Shown here: in pieces, positions 31,742 to 38,442 of the stretch
Layout of the letters: each line of letters opens with the position of its first letter
How positions within the stretch are numbered: the stretch's first letter is position 1
NCBI RefSeq assembly: GCF_004349355.1
Contig: NZ_SMFK01000005.1
Location: forward strand, 186,001 to 250,000
DNA: 64,000 nt
Source: Flavobacterium cellulosilyticum
GTDB lineage: Bacteria > Bacteroidota > Bacteroidia > Flavobacteriales > Flavobacteriaceae
Direction: 5' to 3'
The notes under the pieces: generated by a model
Databases searched by the model: none
Seen by the model: the letters and a program-made list of their open reading frames with translations, nothing else
Told to the model about the DNA's origin: nothing
Made by a program: the position numbers and the translations under genes

Positions 31742-33031
31742 TTATCCTAAAAACGCCTTCAATTCTTCATAAGTCTTGATTTTTGTACTCACTTTTTCTT
31801 TTCCTAACACACTTTCTATTTGTGTTGGAATAGGTAATTTTATATTTAAAGCAGGTTCTACTACATCCAAAAATTTGATAGGATGGGCGGTTTCTAAGAA
31901 AATCCCAATCGCATTTGGAAAATTGATCATTTCTTTTTTTAATCCTAAATAACCTACTGCTCCGTGAGGTTCTGCAATATAACCGTCTGTTTTATAAATG
32001 GTTTGCATCGCAGCTGTAGTCTCTTCATCAGTATACGAATAAGAAGAAAAATCCTTTCTGAATTGCTCCAAATCGTTGTTGTACATTTCCTGAATTCGGA
32101 TAAAATTACTTGGATTTCCAACATCCATGGCATTGGAAATAGTAGCTTTTGAAGGCTTTGGATCGTAATTTCCTTTTTCTAAAAATCGAGGAACGGTATC
32201 GTTTACATTCGTTGAAGCCACGAAATGTTCGATTGGTAAACCTAATTTTTTGGCCATGATTCCAGCACAAATATTTCCAAAATTTCCACTTGGACAAGAA
32301 AATACTAAAAGTTTGTTTTCGGATTTTAATTGCTTGTAAGCAAAGAAAAAGTAAAACATTTGAGGCAACCAACGGGCAATATTTATCGAATTGGCCGATG
32401 TCAGCTTGTGATGTTTTAGACTTTCGTCTAAAAAGGCTTTTTTGACCATATCTTGACAATCATCAAAAACACCATCTACTTCAAGTGCTCTGATGTTTTG
32501 TCCTAAAGTTGTTAGTTGTCTTTCTTGGATGTCGCTCACTTTCCCCGAAGGGTATAATATCACTACATCAACACCTTGAACCCCAAGAAAACCACTCGCA
32601 ACTGCACCACCTGTATCTCCAGAAGTAGCAACAAGAACTGTGTTTTTATTGTCCTTTTTGTCTTTATTGAAATAACCCAAGCAACGCGACATAAAACGAG
32701 CGCCAACGTCTTTGAACGCCATTGTAGGTCCGTGATATAGTTCTAAGGCGTAGATTGAATCTTCAACTTTCACCGTTGGGAAATCGAAACTTAAAGTTTC
32801 GGCAATGATTTGTTTTAAAGTTTCAGTAGGAATTTCGTCGCCTACAAATTGTTGGATAACTTCAAAAGCAATTGCTTCATTGCTTAAATTTTCTATATTT
32901 TTGAAAAAATCACTATTTAATGGAGTAATGGATTCTGGAAAATACAATCCTTTATCGGCTGCTAATCCTTGAATTACCGCTTCTTGGAAAGAAACTTTTG
33001 GAGCATTATGGTTTAAACTGTAGTATTTCAT
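31742..33031 (-). CDS. thrC: Threonine synthase
   Basis: 429 aa PLP enzyme that turns O-phospho-L-homoserine into threonine, the last step of the pathway. It begins KYYSLNHNAPKVSFQEAVIQGLAADKGLY; the PLP lysine lies in GPTMAFKDVGARF, and VATSGDTGGAVASGFLG is the substrate-binding loop. The C-terminal EPHGAVGYLGL is present. Length matches the E. coli-type enzyme. It is the last gene of thrA-thrB-thrC. Confidence 0.97.
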   Translation of the reverse strand: MKYYSLNHNAPKVSFQEAVIQGLAADKGLYFPESITPLNSDFFKNIENLSNEAIAFEVIQQFVGDEIPTETLKQIIAETLSFDFPTVKVEDSIYALELYHGPTMAFKDVGARFMSRCLGYFNKDKKDNKNTVLVATSGDTGGAVASGFLGVQGVDVVILYPSGKVSDIQERQLTTLGQNIRALEVDGVFDDCQDMVKKAFLDESLKHHKLTSANSINIARWLPQMFYFFFAYKQLKSENKLLVFSCPSGNFGNICAGIMAKKLGLPIEHFVASTNVNDTVPRFLEKGNYDPKPSKATISNAMDVGNPSNFIRIQEMYNNDLEQFRKDFSSYSYTDEETTAAMQTIYKTDGYIAEPHGAVGYLGLKKEMINFPNAIGIFLETAHPIKFLDVVEPALNIKLPIPTQIESVLGKEKVSTKIKTYEELKAFLG

Positions 33032-33105: not shown

Positions 33106-34026
33106 TTATATTATACTTACACCTTCTGGATTCACTTTTGAAACGTGAATTTCATAAGGCAAATTAATTTTGTCATAAACTGCACTCATCGCTTTGGCGA
33201 TTCTTTCGGCGGTGTCTTTTCCTTTGCTTAACGCAAAAATAGAAGGACCTGAACCTGAAATCCCCGAACCTAAGGCTCCATTATCATAAGCGGTTTGCTT
33301 AATCAAATCGAAACCAGGAATCAAAATACTGCGAACCGGTTCGATGATTTCATCATGTAAAGAACGACCAATCAATTCGTAATCTTTGGTATACAATCCA
33401 GCAATTAATCCGCCTACATTTCCCCATTGGGTTATGGCACTTTTCAAGGAAACTGTTTGTTTTAATACCGAACGCGCATCCGATGTTTTCAGTTCAATTT
33501 GAGGATGAACTACTGTTGCATATAATTCCTCTGGACTGTCAATTTTGATTATGTCTAATGGATTGGAACATCTTACCAAAGTAAAACCTCCCAATAGGCA
33601 AGGGGCTACATTATCGGCGTGGGCATTTCCGCTAGCTAATTTTTCGCCTTGCATGGCAAATTTCACCAATTCTTTGCGGGTAAATGGACGACCCAATAAT
33701 TCGTTGATTCCAAAAACAGCTCCGGCTGAACTGGCAGCACTACTTCCGATTCCGCTTCCTGCCTTGATGTGCTTGTATATTTCTATTTCAAAACCAAGTT
33801 CGGTGTCCACTTCTTCCATCATTGCTAAAGCAGCCACTCCAGCTACATTGTTTTCAGTTTCCATTGGCAAATCGGCACCTACAATTTTTGTGATTCGAAT
33901 CCCTTTTACATCCGATTTTCTTATAATCATTTCGTCGCCTGCAGTAGTCAAACAAAGTCCCAGAACATCAAAACCACAAGAAAGATTGGCAATGGTTGCA
34001 GGGCAAAAAAGTTTTATTTCATTCAT
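33106..34026 (-). CDS. thrB: Homoserine kinase (GHMP family)
   Basis: 306 aa. It phosphorylates homoserine for ThrC. GHMP motifs: ATIANLSCGFDVLGLCL at the start, the ATP loop in KAGSGIGSSAASSAGAVFG, and GALGSGISGSGPSIFAL in the C-terminal part. Length is typical. It lies between thrA (91 bases upstream) and thrC (74 bases downstream) on the same strand. Confidence 0.97.
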   Translation of the reverse strand: MNEIKLFCPATIANLSCGFDVLGLCLTTAGDEMIIRKSDVKGIRITKIVGADLPMETENNVAGVAALAMMEEVDTELGFEIEIYKHIKAGSGIGSSAASSAGAVFGINELLGRPFTRKELVKFAMQGEKLASGNAHADNVAPCLLGGFTLVRCSNPLDIIKIDSPEELYATVVHPQIELKTSDARSVLKQTVSLKSAITQWGNVGGLIAGLYTKDYELIGRSLHDEIIEPVRSILIPGFDLIKQTAYDNGALGSGISGSGPSIFALSKGKDTAERIAKAMSAVYDKINLPYEIHVSKVNPEGVSII

Positions 34027-34117: not shown

Positions 34118-36565
34118 TTAAATGTTTCCTACACGAATTACATCAGCAAAAATTCCTGATGCTGTAACTGCAGCACCAGCACCAGCACCTTTTATTAGTA
34201 AAGGTTGGTCAACATACCGATCCGTGTAAAATTGTACAATATTATCTTTTCCTTCCAGATTATAGAAAGGACTTTCTTTTGGGATAAATTCTAATCCAAC
34301 GCTAGCTTTTCCGTTTTCGAAAGTAGCGACATATTTCAAACGACATTCTTTTGCTTTTGCTTCTTTCAGTAAATTTTCAAAATGGGCTGCATTCTTGATT
34401 AACGATTTAAAAAAATCTTCGTTATTTGTTGTTGCCAAACATTCTGCCGGTAAAAATGATATGTTGGTGATATCTTCGATATCAAATTGGTAACCGCTTT
34501 CGCGAATTAGAATTAATATCTTTCGGGCAACATCAACGCCACTTAAATCAATTGTTGGATCTGGTTCAGTGAATCCTTGTACTCCGGCTTCTTTTACAAC
34601 ATCGTGAAACGAATTGTTTTCATCGAAATTGTTGAAAATAAAGTTCAAACTTCCAGATAAAACGGCTTGTATTTTGTTCACTTTATCGCCAGAAGCAATT
34701 AAGTGTTTCAAGGTGTCAATAATTGGTAAACCTGCTCCTACATTGGTTTCAAATAAGAAAGGCGCATTGTATTTTCGTGATAATTGTTTCAAGTAACTGT
34801 AATTATCATAAGCTGAAGAACAAGCAATTTTATTACAAGTAACGACTGCTATATTTTGTTTTAAGAAATGTTCATACGATTGTGAAACACTTTCATTTGC
34901 TGTAATATCTACAAAAATACTGTTGCGTAAATTGAGTGCTTTTACATTTGAGATAAAGTGTTCTTTATTTGCATTTTCGCCATTTTCTAATGTAGATTTC
35001 CAATTTTTTAGGGAAATGCCTTCTTCGTCAAAAAGCATTTTTCTAGAATTGGATACAGCAATAACTCTAAGGTTTATTTTTAGATTCTCTTTTAGGAATT
35101 TTTTTTGTTGATGAATTTGTTCAATAAATTTTTCACCTACGTTTCCAACACCCATTACAAATAAATTCAGCTGTTTGGTATTTTCTTCAAAGAAGTTTTC
35201 ATGAAGCGTATTCAGTGCTTTTTTAACATCTCTTTCGTTGATTACTGCTGATATGTTTCTTTCGGAAGCACCTTGAGCAATCGCTCTTATATTAACATTG
35301 TTTTTACCTAAAGTACTAAACATTCTACCGCTTAATCCTTGGTGGTTTTTCATGTTTTCACCTACTAAAGCAATTATGCATAGTTTTTTTTCGACAATAC
35401 AAGCATCGATTTTGTTTTGTGCAATTTCAATAGCAAAAGCATTATTTATGGCGTTTTCAGCATTTTCAGCATCGATATCTAGGATTCCAATACAGATTGA
35501 ATGTTCTGAAGAAGCTTGCGTGATGAAAATTACATTGATATCATTTTGAGAAAGCACTTCGAACAATCTTTTTGACGATCCTGTAACTCCAATCATTCCT
35601 GAACCTTCAAGAGTAATCAAGCTAATGTTTTCGATATGACTTATTCCTTTGACAGGATTGGTTTGTGATATGTTTTGGTTTGAAATATAAGTTCCGTCAG
35701 CTTCAGGTTCAAAAGTGTTTTTGATTATTATAGGAATGTTTTTTCTTAAAACAGGCTGAATCGTTGGAGGATATAGCACTTTGGCTCCAAAATGAGATAA
35801 CTCCATCGCTTCTTGATAGGAAATTGTAGCAATAGGTTGTGCTTGTTTAACAATTCTTGGATTAGCAGTAAACATACCATTGACGTCAGACCAAATTTGC
35901 AATTCAGTAGCATTGACAGCAGCGGCTATGATTGCCGCAGTATAATCAGAACCACCACGACCAAGAGTTGTGCCAATATTATCTATAGAATTAGCGATAA
36001 AACCAGGCATAATTACAATTTGTACCTCATTCGAGGCAAAATAATCAGCAATTAGGGAGTTTGATACTTCAAAGTTTACAACCGCTTTACCAAAATTATT
36101 ATTGGTTTTTATTAATTCACGGCTGTCTTTGTAACTACAGTTTTTATTTTGTTGATTGAAGGCTTCTGCAATTATATAAGAAGATAATAATTCTCCAAAA
36201 CTCAAAATAGTATCCGAAGTTCTTGGGGATAATTCGCCAAGCAAGAAACAACCTTCTAATAAAGTATCTAAATGATTGATGATTCTTTTGATATGACTTA
36301 AAGATCTACTTTGCTCACTTACTGGAATTAATTCCTTTATAGCATCTAAATGTTTTTTTTCTATTTCAGAAACTACTTCCTTGAAACTTTCGTCATTAAA
36401 AGCTGCTTTTTGAGATGCAAGAACTAACAAATCGGTTACTTTGGTAAAAGCAGAAACAACAACAACAAGTTTGTCTTTTTTTGCTTTATTGAGGACTATA
36501 TCCAGTACCAATTTTATATTTTGTGCATTGGCTACCGAAGTTCCGCCAAATTTTAATACTTTCAT
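34118..36565 (-). CDS. thrA: Bifunctional aspartokinase / homoserine dehydrogenase
   Basis: 815 aa. The aspartokinase half (about 1-300) begins KVLKFGGTSVANAQN and has FGELLSSYI and GRGGSDYTAA; two ACT regulatory domains follow (about 310-460), the site of threonine feedback in E. coli ThrA. The homoserine dehydrogenase half starts at the NAD-binding VMGVGNVGEKF and includes ETNVGAGLPIIDTLKHL and GFTEPDPTIDLSG. It catalyses the first and third steps from aspartate to threonine. It heads the thr operon, behind a leader peptide with five threonines in a row. Confidence 0.97.
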   Translation of the reverse strand: MKVLKFGGTSVANAQNIKLVLDIVLNKAKKDKLVVVVSAFTKVTDLLVLASQKAAFNDESFKEVVSEIEKKHLDAIKELIPVSEQSRSLSHIKRIINHLDTLLEGCFLLGELSPRTSDTILSFGELLSSYIIAEAFNQQNKNCSYKDSRELIKTNNNFGKAVVNFEVSNSLIADYFASNEVQIVIMPGFIANSIDNIGTTLGRGGSDYTAAIIAAAVNATELQIWSDVNGMFTANPRIVKQAQPIATISYQEAMELSHFGAKVLYPPTIQPVLRKNIPIIIKNTFEPEADGTYISNQNISQTNPVKGISHIENISLITLEGSGMIGVTGSSKRLFEVLSQNDINVIFITQASSEHSICIGILDIDAENAENAINNAFAIEIAQNKIDACIVEKKLCIIALVGENMKNHQGLSGRMFSTLGKNNVNIRAIAQGASERNISAVINERDVKKALNTLHENFFEENTKQLNLFVMGVGNVGEKFIEQIHQQKKFLKENLKINLRVIAVSNSRKMLFDEEGISLKNWKSTLENGENANKEHFISNVKALNLRNSIFVDITANESVSQSYEHFLKQNIAVVTCNKIACSSAYDNYSYLKQLSRKYNAPFLFETNVGAGLPIIDTLKHLIASGDKVNKIQAVLSGSLNFIFNNFDENNSFHDVVKEAGVQGFTEPDPTIDLSGVDVARKILILIRESGYQFDIEDITNISFLPAECLATTNNEDFFKSLIKNAAHFENLLKEAKAKECRLKYVATFENGKASVGLEFIPKESPFYNLEGKDNIVQFYTDRYVDQPLLIKGAGAGAAVTASGIFADVIRVGNI

Positions 36566-36626
36566 TTTATTTTTTTTATTTGAAAAAGCAATGTTTTTTA
36601 TACACCCAAGAACTTTCTTCCTTTAG

Positions 36627-36651
36627 AAAAAAGTATAATAACAGGATTATA
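36627..36651 (-). terminator. Candidate attenuator terminator of the thr leader
   Basis: Between the leader stop and thrA, minus-strand TATAAT-cctgtt-ATTATA forms a short hairpin followed by a six-T run (36632-36627). The stem is all A-T, so strength is modest. Its place fits a threonine-controlled attenuator. Confidence 0.5.
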
Positions 36652-36661
36652 TTTGAAAAGT

Positions 36662-36769
36662 TTACCCCAACGGGGTAGTAGTTGTAGTAGAAGCGGTAAA
36701 TGAAACAGAAAACGCAGCCCAATTTTGAGTTGTTATCAAAGTCTGATATGTTTTGCTGTTATTTTTCAT
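36662..36769 (-). CDS. Threonine operon leader peptide
   Basis: A 35-codon frame from ATG 36769 to TAA 36664-36662. The peptide starts MKNNSKTYQTLITTQN and ends in TASTTTTTPLG: 10 of 35 residues are Thr, five of them consecutive (codons 28-32, ACT ACA ACT ACT ACC). The Thr run and stop overlap a perfect TACCCC-gtt-GGGGTA hairpin. A ribosome stalled for Thr-tRNA would free or block downstream hairpins and control thrABC. The promoter lies 10 bases upstream. A thrL-type role is inferred from composition and location. Confidence 0.85.
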   Translation of the reverse strand: MKNNSKTYQTLITTQNWAAFSVSFTASTTTTTPLG

Positions 36770-36778
36770 TTAATTCTC

Positions 36779-36807
36779 CAAAAGTACAGTTTTTTATAAA
36801 ATAACAA
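36779..36807 (-). promoter_or_regulatory. Promoter of the thr operon
   Basis: Minus-strand TTG (36807-36805), an 18-base spacer and TACTTTTG (36786-36779) make a full flavobacterial promoter, just before the leader peptide start. Confidence 0.75.
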
Positions 36808-36939
36808 AACCTTTTATTCAGTTTTTGCGAATATTTTAAAAAACGCGATATTAAAAAAAGAATATTAATTATTTTGACTCAAAACCTTGCTTTTTAATAT
36901 TGAATTATTGAATTTTGAGCTAACAAAAGTTAAAGTGAA

Positions 36940-38442
36940 ATGGATACTACACATTATATAAGTACAGCGGTACTTTCATTAGAAACGGTACATGAGATAG
37001 TTTCATTTCATAAAATGCTAGCATTATCTGATGAAGCTAAATTCAACATTCAAAAATGCAGGGAGTATCTCGATAAAAAAATGGAATCACATTCCAAACC
37101 AATTTATGGCATTAATACAGGATTTGGATCACTATATAATGTAAAAATATCAAATGAAAACTTATCTAAATTACAGGAAAATCTAGTAAAATCTCACGCT
37201 TGTGGAATTGGTGAAGAGGTCCCAAATGCTATTGTAAAATTGATGTTGTTGTTGAAAATACAATCGTTAAGTTATGGCCATTCTGGAATTCAACTGCAAA
37301 CGGTGGAGCGATTAATCGATTTTTATAATAACGATGTTTTTCCAGTTATTTATACTCAAGGTTCTCTAGGTGCATCGGGTGATTTAGCTCCGTTGGCTCA
37401 TCTATCATTACCTCTTTTGGGCGAAGGAGAAGTTTATTTTGAAGGTAAAAAAATGCCTTCCAACGAAATCTTGAATCGATTTAATTGGAACCCCATTGTG
37501 TTGCAGTCTAAAGAAGGATTAGCTTTACTTAATGGGACTCAATTTATGAGTGCTTATGGTGTTTATACCTTGATGAAAGCCAACAAGTTTTCATATTTGG
37601 CAGATTTAATTGGAACTATTTCCTTGGAAGCATTTGATGGTAGAATAGATCCTTTTCACGAGTTAGTACATTTTATTAGACCACATAAAGGGCAAATTGT
37701 AACTGCCAATCGAGTTAAGGAATTTTTAGACGGAAGTGAAATAATAAGTCAGAAGAAAACACATGTTCAGGATCCGTATTCGTTTCGTTGTATTCCACAA
37801 GTACATGGAGCTTCGAAGGATGCAATTGATTATGTGAAAAAAGTTTTCAAAACTGAAATTAATTCTGTTACCGATAATCCCAATATATTTTCAGAAAGTG
37901 ACCAGATTATTTCTGGAGGTAATTTTCACGGACAACCTTTGGCAATAGCTTTGGATTTTTTAGCAATAGCTTTGGCTGAATTGGGCAGTATTTCTGAACG
38001 AAGAACGTATCAATTAATTTCGGGGGCACGTAAACTTCCTGCTTTTTTGGTTGATAATCCCGGATTAAATTCAGGTTTAATGATTCCGCAATATACGGCA
38101 GCAAGTATAGCAAGTCAAAACAAACAATTGGCAACTCCAGCAAGTATTGATAGTATAGTGTCTAGTAATGGACAAGAAGATCATGTGAGTATGGGAGCTA
38201 ATGGAGCCACAAAAGCATTGAAAGTAATGGAAAATCTGGAGCGAATTTTAGCAATCGAATTGATGAATGCATCGCAAGCTATTGAGTATCGTAGGCCTTT
38301 AGAATCTAGTGATTTTATTGAAATGTTTATAAAATCCTATCGTGAAGAAGTTCCATTAGTAAAAGAAGATCGAATCTTACATTATGATATTGAAAAATCA
38401 GTGGTTTTTTTGAATAGTTTCGAAATTGAAGATGATAGTTAA
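36940..38442 (+). CDS. hutH: Histidine ammonia-lyase
   Basis: 500 aa. It deaminates histidine to urocanate. The self-made MIO cofactor comes from Ala145-Ser146-Gly147 in GSLGASGDLAPLAHL; YGINTGFG (about 56-63) and the SHACGIGEE region are typical, and GGNFHGQPLA and SNGQEDHVSMG complete the active site. The rest of the hut pathway is not in this window. It is divergent from the thr operon across a 170-base AT-rich spacer. Confidence 0.93.
   Translation: MDTTHYISTAVLSLETVHEIVSFHKMLALSDEAKFNIQKCREYLDKKMESHSKPIYGINTGFGSLYNVKISNENLSKLQENLVKSHACGIGEEVPNAIVKLMLLLKIQSLSYGHSGIQLQTVERLIDFYNNDVFPVIYTQGSLGASGDLAPLAHLSLPLLGEGEVYFEGKKMPSNEILNRFNWNPIVLQSKEGLALLNGTQFMSAYGVYTLMKANKFSYLADLIGTISLEAFDGRIDPFHELVHFIRPHKGQIVTANRVKEFLDGSEIISQKKTHVQDPYSFRCIPQVHGASKDAIDYVKKVFKTEINSVTDNPNIFSESDQIISGGNFHGQPLAIALDFLAIALAELGSISERRTYQLISGARKLPAFLVDNPGLNSGLMIPQYTAASIASQNKQLATPASIDSIVSSNGQEDHVSMGANGATKALKVMENLERILAIELMNASQAIEYRRPLESSDFIEMFIKSYREEVPLVKEDRILHYDIEKSVVFLNSFEIEDDS

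Follow-up and report, generated by a model that had tools for sequence, protein, structure and literature searches.

Textbook amino-acid attenuation works through alternative hairpins and a U-tract terminator, and for threonine the closest described system is the thrL attenuator of enterobacteria (Rfam Thr_leader), in which a leader with Thr codons precedes thrABC and which in E. coli is bivalent, carrying both Thr and Ile codons. Leaders of the tnaC type are terminator-less and act through Rho-dependent termination. Cys leader peptides of Mycobacterium lack obvious terminators, and Rho has been suggested for them (PMC1262725). For the Bacteroidota, leader-like small ORFs have been reported in Bacteroides (PMC7366714), the Bacteroid-trp motif RF01692 is a cis-regulatory RNA (PMC2864571), and leader-peptide attenuation has been stated in general terms for the amino-acid biosynthesis operons of F. 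psychrophilum (PMC9723704). The words "threonine" and "thrA" are absent from the main text of PMC9723704, and PMC2965389 contains no word beginning Bacteroid or Flavobacteri. A description of the thr leader considered below was not found in the titles and abstract openings searched, a scope outside which most subscription papers fall.

Here, we analyze the leader ahead of thrABC in Flavobacterium cellulosilyticum (genome of 4.66 Mb), which lies in a window of 64,000 nucleotides, the whole stretch of DNA that was examined. Like thrL, it is a predicted short ORF with a run of codons for the regulated amino acid ahead of the operon, and many of its relatives also carry Ile codons. Unlike thrL, it has no U-tract intrinsic terminator between leader and thrA by the canonical score, no supported antiterminator, and no Rfam match, and it has instead a hairpin at the stop codon and a nearly leaderless start. 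Thr_leader and Bacteroid-trp are absent from the six Rfam matches up to E = 10 in 36480–36900, which also sets the leader apart from the Bacteroid-trp motif, another RNA of this phylum. With the Cys leaders of Mycobacterium and other bacteria it shares a codon run near the stop and the failure to find a terminator; those leaders differ in amino acid and phylum and, according to PMC1262725, showed no conserved hairpin that could be a terminator, whereas two hairpins (P2 and P3) and a sequence box between them are conserved here. What is new is a conserved thr leader design lacking a canonical terminator; amino-acid leader attenuation as such is already known.

Experimental procedures

ThrA, ThrB, and ThrC were identified against NCBIfam cut-offs. 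The regions upstream of thrA were read at 71 loci of the genus, 74 in the rest of the family, and 73 belonging to other families within the phylum. The genus set comprises 70 thrA places (the best 30 and 40 further ones, leaving out 20 listed places between them and weaker ones) and locus L173; the family set comprises 28, 40, and 6 loci, again leaving out weaker places; and the phylum set includes 2 of the 9 loci of family f45. An ORF was called a leader if the count of Thr and Ile codons near its end was at least three in the presence of P2 or at least four in its absence, and some counts for L025 and L035 used a start codon that lies upstream of the more likely start. The loci are not mutually independent, and Fisher values on these counts are only indicative. 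Terminators were assessed by a canonical score of the d'Aubenton-Carafa form.

Results

The promoter, the 35-codon frame with ten Thr codons, five of them consecutive, and the TACCCC/GGGGTA hairpin that a preliminary description had reported are all in place, and every element of the locus lies on the minus strand (Table 1). Flavobacterial transcription maps position a TAnnTTTG −7 box at −12 to −5 (PMC9723704), with 4 or 5 nt between box and start (PMC6847099). The leader AUG (36769) is 9 nt downstream of the TACTTTTG box, and these published positions therefore predict a 5′ UTR of about 5 nt, which would make the thr leader nearly leaderless. The gap from the −7 box to the start codon is 5 to 12 nt in 59 of the 67 leaders of the genus that carry P2. 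The operon is divergent from hutH (histidine ammonia-lyase; 36940–38442, plus strand). The only Rfam family that reaches its gathering score in the window is Flavo-1 (RF01705; 14620–14701, minus strand; 82.9 bits). The start region of a second aspartokinase gene (L002, G000:C1:53874–53937), some upstream bases included, matches the thrA start region over 64 nt with 84% identity; no leader was seen there.

Table 1. Features of the thr locus, in window coordinates
Feature	Position	Strand	Sequence, score, or basis
Predicted promoter	36779..36809	−	TTTTG (−33 region), N18, TACTTTTG (−7 box); TTG 36807–36805, TACTTTTG 36786–36779; from sequence
Predicted transcription start	~36774	−	box position per PMC9723704
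Leader peptide ORF	36662..36769	−	MKNNSKTYQTLITTQNWAAFSVSFTASTTTTTPLG; 35 codons, 10 Thr; Thr-rich P2 leader at 67/71 genus loci
Run of five Thr codons	36674..36688	−	last codon ACC; from sequence
Hairpin P2	36663..36677	−	TACCCC-GTT-GGGGTA; overlaps last Thr codon and stop codon; −7.5 kcal/mol
Box in G-poor spacer	36644..36655	−	CAAATATAATCC here, usually ACATATAATCC in genus; from alignment
T6 hairpin	36651–36627	−	TATAAT-CCTGTT-ATTATA, then C and T6; 0.0 to −0.4 kcal/mol
Hairpin P3	36612..36634	−	ACTTTTTTCT-AAA-GGAAGAAAGT; −7.0 kcal/mol; no U-tract behind
Segment after P3	36599..36611	−	TCTTGGGTGTATA; similar in part of genus (by eye); one predicted F. cellulosilyticum fold pairs it with the box around P3
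thrA, bifunctional aspartate kinase/homoserine dehydrogenase I	34118..36565	−	NF006959, 1049.9 bits, cut-off 726
thrB, homoserine kinase	33106..34026	−	NF002288 and TIGR00191, above cut-off
thrC, threonine synthase	31742..33031	−	TIGR00260, above cut-off

Comparison across relatives establishes the anatomy and the conservation of these predicted leader elements. P2 leaders were found at 67 of the 71 genus loci, one of which (L059) barely passes the leader rule and looks degenerate, and at 67 of the 74 loci in the rest of the family, where three further loci have a leader without P2 and four have none. Beyond the family, P2 leaders occur in families f2 (4 of 6 loci), f34 (2 of 2), f4 (4 of 5), and f21 (6 of 12), the last of which belongs to another class, and at 0 of the remaining 48 loci of other families of the phylum. 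Among 79 loci from named taxa, which partly repeat the others and were not added to the total of 150 P2 leaders, 73 have P2 and are without a terminator, one has another short ORF, and five have no leader; the named taxa with P2 leaders include Kordia, Maribacter, and Chitinophagaceae, and the same leader is present in Flavobacterium erciyesense (L315). The four genus loci that have thrA and at which a leader was not found are L046, L051, L052, and L064.

A search of 31 genus genomes with a model of the element, in which 147 candidates were scored per genome and many of the matched sequences were already part of the model, returned one strong match in 20 genomes, each immediately upstream of a thrA place, and none in the other 11. 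Within this limited number of candidates, the element appears to be dedicated to thrA. Wider use of the element was considered and set aside, since strong matches lie only ahead of thrA and a weak extra match, L394 (E = 0.048), is not leader-like by eye.

The 5′ arm of P2 lies in the leader frame with the ACC codon in 149 of 150 P2 leaders, and in 141 of them the stop codon begins 5, 11, or 14 nt beyond P2's first C; by eye, the GGGG arm is preserved whether it is coding or lies 3′ of the stop. In the genus, the final four codons are Thr in 91 to 100% of leaders, and outside the genus Thr and Ile share the last codon places (codon −1: 55% Thr, 34% Ile). Thr codons lost while thrA stays would speak against a Thr-sensing leader; what the relatives have is the reverse, with Thr retained and third bases varied. 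P2 is the sole structure returned by RNAalifold on the genus alignment, and because its core pairs are nearly invariant, covariation says little about it. Another hairpin within the leader ORF, P1, can be seen by eye in part of the genus.

Past P2 lies a spacer whose G content is 0.04 in the genus. Its structure is lower than in shuffles of the whole 72 nt, a difference that may only reflect the low G. Within the spacer, the motif (C/T/A)ATAT starts 8 to 12 nt after P2 in 127 of the 150 leaders, compared with about 15 of 150 in shuffles, and the signal is present in each group: 63 of 67 leaders in the genus, 50 of 67 in the family, and 14 of 16 elsewhere, for which shuffles give 8.5, 5.4, and 1.1, respectively. 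As a general element the box was rejected: WCATATMATCC occurs 18 times in the F. cellulosilyticum genome and the reversed control once, none of the 18 copies comes with such a leader, and most look coding by eye.

Of the 134 genus and family leaders, 132 were used for P3, and 96 of these have a stem of at least 6 bp at its place, compared with 33 in shuffles. Stems of at least 4 bp are found in 127 leaders and in 108 of 132 in shuffles, and the search window fixes their distance, so that the figure of 127 alone is no evidence. The mean energy profile over 136 of the 150 leaders has its minimum about 27 to 30 nt past P2, at −3.6 versus −0.5 to −0.7 in shuffles, and this signal holds in f2 and f34 as well as in the genus and the family. 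At the four f4 loci the best hairpin does not surpass that of shuffles (mean z 0.03), and at the six f21 loci it begins closer to P2, a median of 13 nt after it. At least five T within 8 nt behind P3 were seen in 7 of 127 cases.

P3 was not found in the RNAalifold consensus of the whole-genus alignment. Thirteen sequences of one subclade were selected because they could be aligned, and the tested structure was drawn from them; 98.1% of their P2 and P3 cells are paired, compared with 93.6% after shuffling and 30 to 54% after sliding. Cells changed on both sides number nine versus 2.9 (0 of 500 shuffles), and pairs with changes on both sides, which all lie in P3, number three versus 1.8 (at least three in 64 of 500 shuffles). 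In one predicted fold of F. cellulosilyticum, the box pairs with GGGTGTATA around P3, an arrangement that is not general. A candidate antiterminator, pairing B (GGGU:AUCC), appears in many folds of the genus and is absent from the predicted fold of this species; it is not supported by covariation.

The preliminary description had read the region as having the arrangement of classic thr attenuation, with a hairpin and a run of six T as its last element. The in-frame Thr run and P2 are indeed kept ahead of thrA. The six-T hairpin did not hold up: it is essentially unstable and by eye not seen in most relatives, and in the predicted fold the six T sit in the 5′ arm of P3. Classic attenuation thus stands in its conserved Thr leader and falls short in having no canonical terminator and only a candidate antiterminator that covariation does not back. 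By the canonical score, 11 of the 150 P2 leaders exceed 0, 5 exceed 5, and none exceeds 10; in a smaller set, 2 of 64 genus and 6 of 27 family thr leaders exceed 0. Among 16 Thr leaders without P2, two of which (L195 and L204) are probably not leaders, 10 score above 10 and 8 above 15; those above 10 include L284, which belongs to the family, and the f2 loci L209 and L211. Eight loci from other Bacteroidota (L209, L211, L222, L223, L226, L228, L247, and L284) resemble the F. cellulosilyticum locus in having a Thr or Thr/Ile leader before thrA but differ from it in having terminator scores of 38.9 to 66.1 and no P2.

Other amino-acid leaders of the same genus resemble the thr leader in having a short ORF, a run of cognate codons, and a TAnnTTTG-type promoter, and differ in their strong U-tract terminators, in the lack of a hairpin like P2 at the stop (0 of 27 his and ilv leaders), and in a promoter-to-start gap of 16 to 36 nt as scanned. 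A His-rich leader precedes hisG at all 20 hisG loci (L120–L139; 20 of the 25 genus genomes searched). The canonical score is above 0 in 19 of the 20 (median 37.4), and the twentieth, L136, fails the scan with a loop that by eye is longer than allowed. Ahead of ilvD, terminators were found at 8 of 18 loci (L142, L146, L148, L151–L154, and L157), and the ilv scores refer to these eight, already flagged as having a terminator. An Ile/Val-rich leader was recognized at 7 of the 18, all seven with a terminator by scan. In F. cellulosilyticum itself, the his leader was found (L134) and an ilv leader was not recognized (L150).

Discussion

We propose, at slightly less than an even chance, that thrABC is under a ribosome-sensing attenuator that lacks a canonical intrinsic terminator and reads charged tRNA-Thr (Thr together with Ile in the majority of relatives from other genera). 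Transcription would start roughly 5 nt upstream of the AUG of the leader, allowing a ribosome to load almost at once. When Thr is scarce, the ribosome would stall in the Thr run and, because the 5′ arm of P2 is the end of that run, would keep P2 open, allowing RNA polymerase to continue into thrA. When Thr is plentiful, the ribosome would reach the stop codon in or just after P2 and depart, P2 would close behind the polymerase, and the polymerase would be held near the box 8 to 12 nt downstream until its release, at that site or close to P3 and probably with the help of Rho or NusG. Hairpin-stabilized pauses have a spacing similar to that between P2 and the box. We infer translation, stalling, pausing or termination, the factor involved, and the level of control from the arrangement of the elements, and the OFF step would be a non-canonical pause or factor-dependent termination. 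Against this proposal, a ribosome at the stop codon would cover P2 as well. In E. coli, repression of a terminator that immediately follows a stop codon has been described (PMC4824070). A bolder and more doubtful form of the proposal, which we advance only tentatively, is that the leader represents a distinct Bacteroidota architecture in which no intrinsic terminator is used and thrA is controlled jointly by a stop-codon hairpin, a positioned box that holds the polymerase, and a second hairpin, the position of the ribosome being sensed through a programmed pause and not through alternative hairpins.

P2 itself, and not the six-T hairpin, might be a weak but sufficient intrinsic terminator that is blocked by a ribosome on the Thr run. 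A lax terminator scan flags 49 of 91 thr loci (2.4 in shuffles), almost always at P2 among the best sites listed, and 28 of 91 are flagged by a stricter scan (0.5 in shuffles); since P2 is flagged in about half of the loci, weak intrinsic termination there is possible, and P2 may act as a weak terminator at some of them. The canonical scores that do rise just above 0 are, however, far under those of the his leaders, the T-rich stretch after P2 is often lost outside the genus (e.g., GGGGTAAGCAAC), and this explanation stays close to the earlier view of intrinsic termination, whose own hairpin proved unstable, so that we consider it unlikely. Rho could instead terminate transcription in the untranslated tail, gated by the position of the ribosome, with P3 as a pause hairpin or one that protects the RNA end. 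The presence of rho in the genome, the scarcity of G in the spacer, and the precedent suggested for the terminator-less Mycobacterium Cys leaders (PMC1262725) are in keeping with this explanation, but with a C content of 0.17 to 0.22 the spacer is G-poor and not C-rich as a Rho site should be, and a ribosome that stalls would be expected to leave the tail accessible to Rho, which is the wrong polarity unless structure intervenes. The positioned box also exceeds what Rho is known to require, and we consider termination of this kind unlikely.

Control might also lie beyond transcription, with translation of the leader governing the stability or translation of the thr mRNA or aiding ribosome loading on thrA. 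P3 is not far upstream of thrA in most loci, and reinitiation from leader genes has been proposed (PMC4833913), both of which fit such control. The leader stops, however, lie 77 to 267 nt from thrA among 64 genus leaders, far from the 11 to 14 nt at which the Bacteroidetes peak falls in that paper (PMC4833913), and the stop is 77 to 110 nt upstream in 46 of the 64 and 140 to 267 nt upstream in the remaining 18; these 18 speak against direct translational control of thrA. We therefore give post-transcriptional control only a slight chance. That the ORF is a chance product of low-complexity sequence, with no regulation at all, is scarcely conceivable: the conservation of the leader refutes it, and its frame, hairpin, and box, together with the restriction of P2 to the thr leaders when compared with those of his and ilv, point the same way.

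Within one genus, the his leaders and the recognized ilv leaders have strong U-tract terminators, and the thr leader has a Thr run, a stop-codon hairpin, and a box, with no terminator of that strength. The same design recurs in other families, in other orders, and in one other class, and at the loci read it does not overlap with the Thr leaders that have canonical terminators. This contrast allows one to ask what replaces or weakens the terminator, and it raises the question of how the ribosome and the polymerase are coordinated in time where, as in this phylum, Shine-Dalgarno sequences are absent.

A variant of the stop hairpin may exist in family f8, where loci L172, L176, L180, and L213 have Thr leaders without P2 and where the hairpin at the stop looks reversed in some (e.g., CGGGGTGACCCG in L180). 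One of these loci, L176, has a weak terminator, with a score of 12.2, at the place expected for P3.
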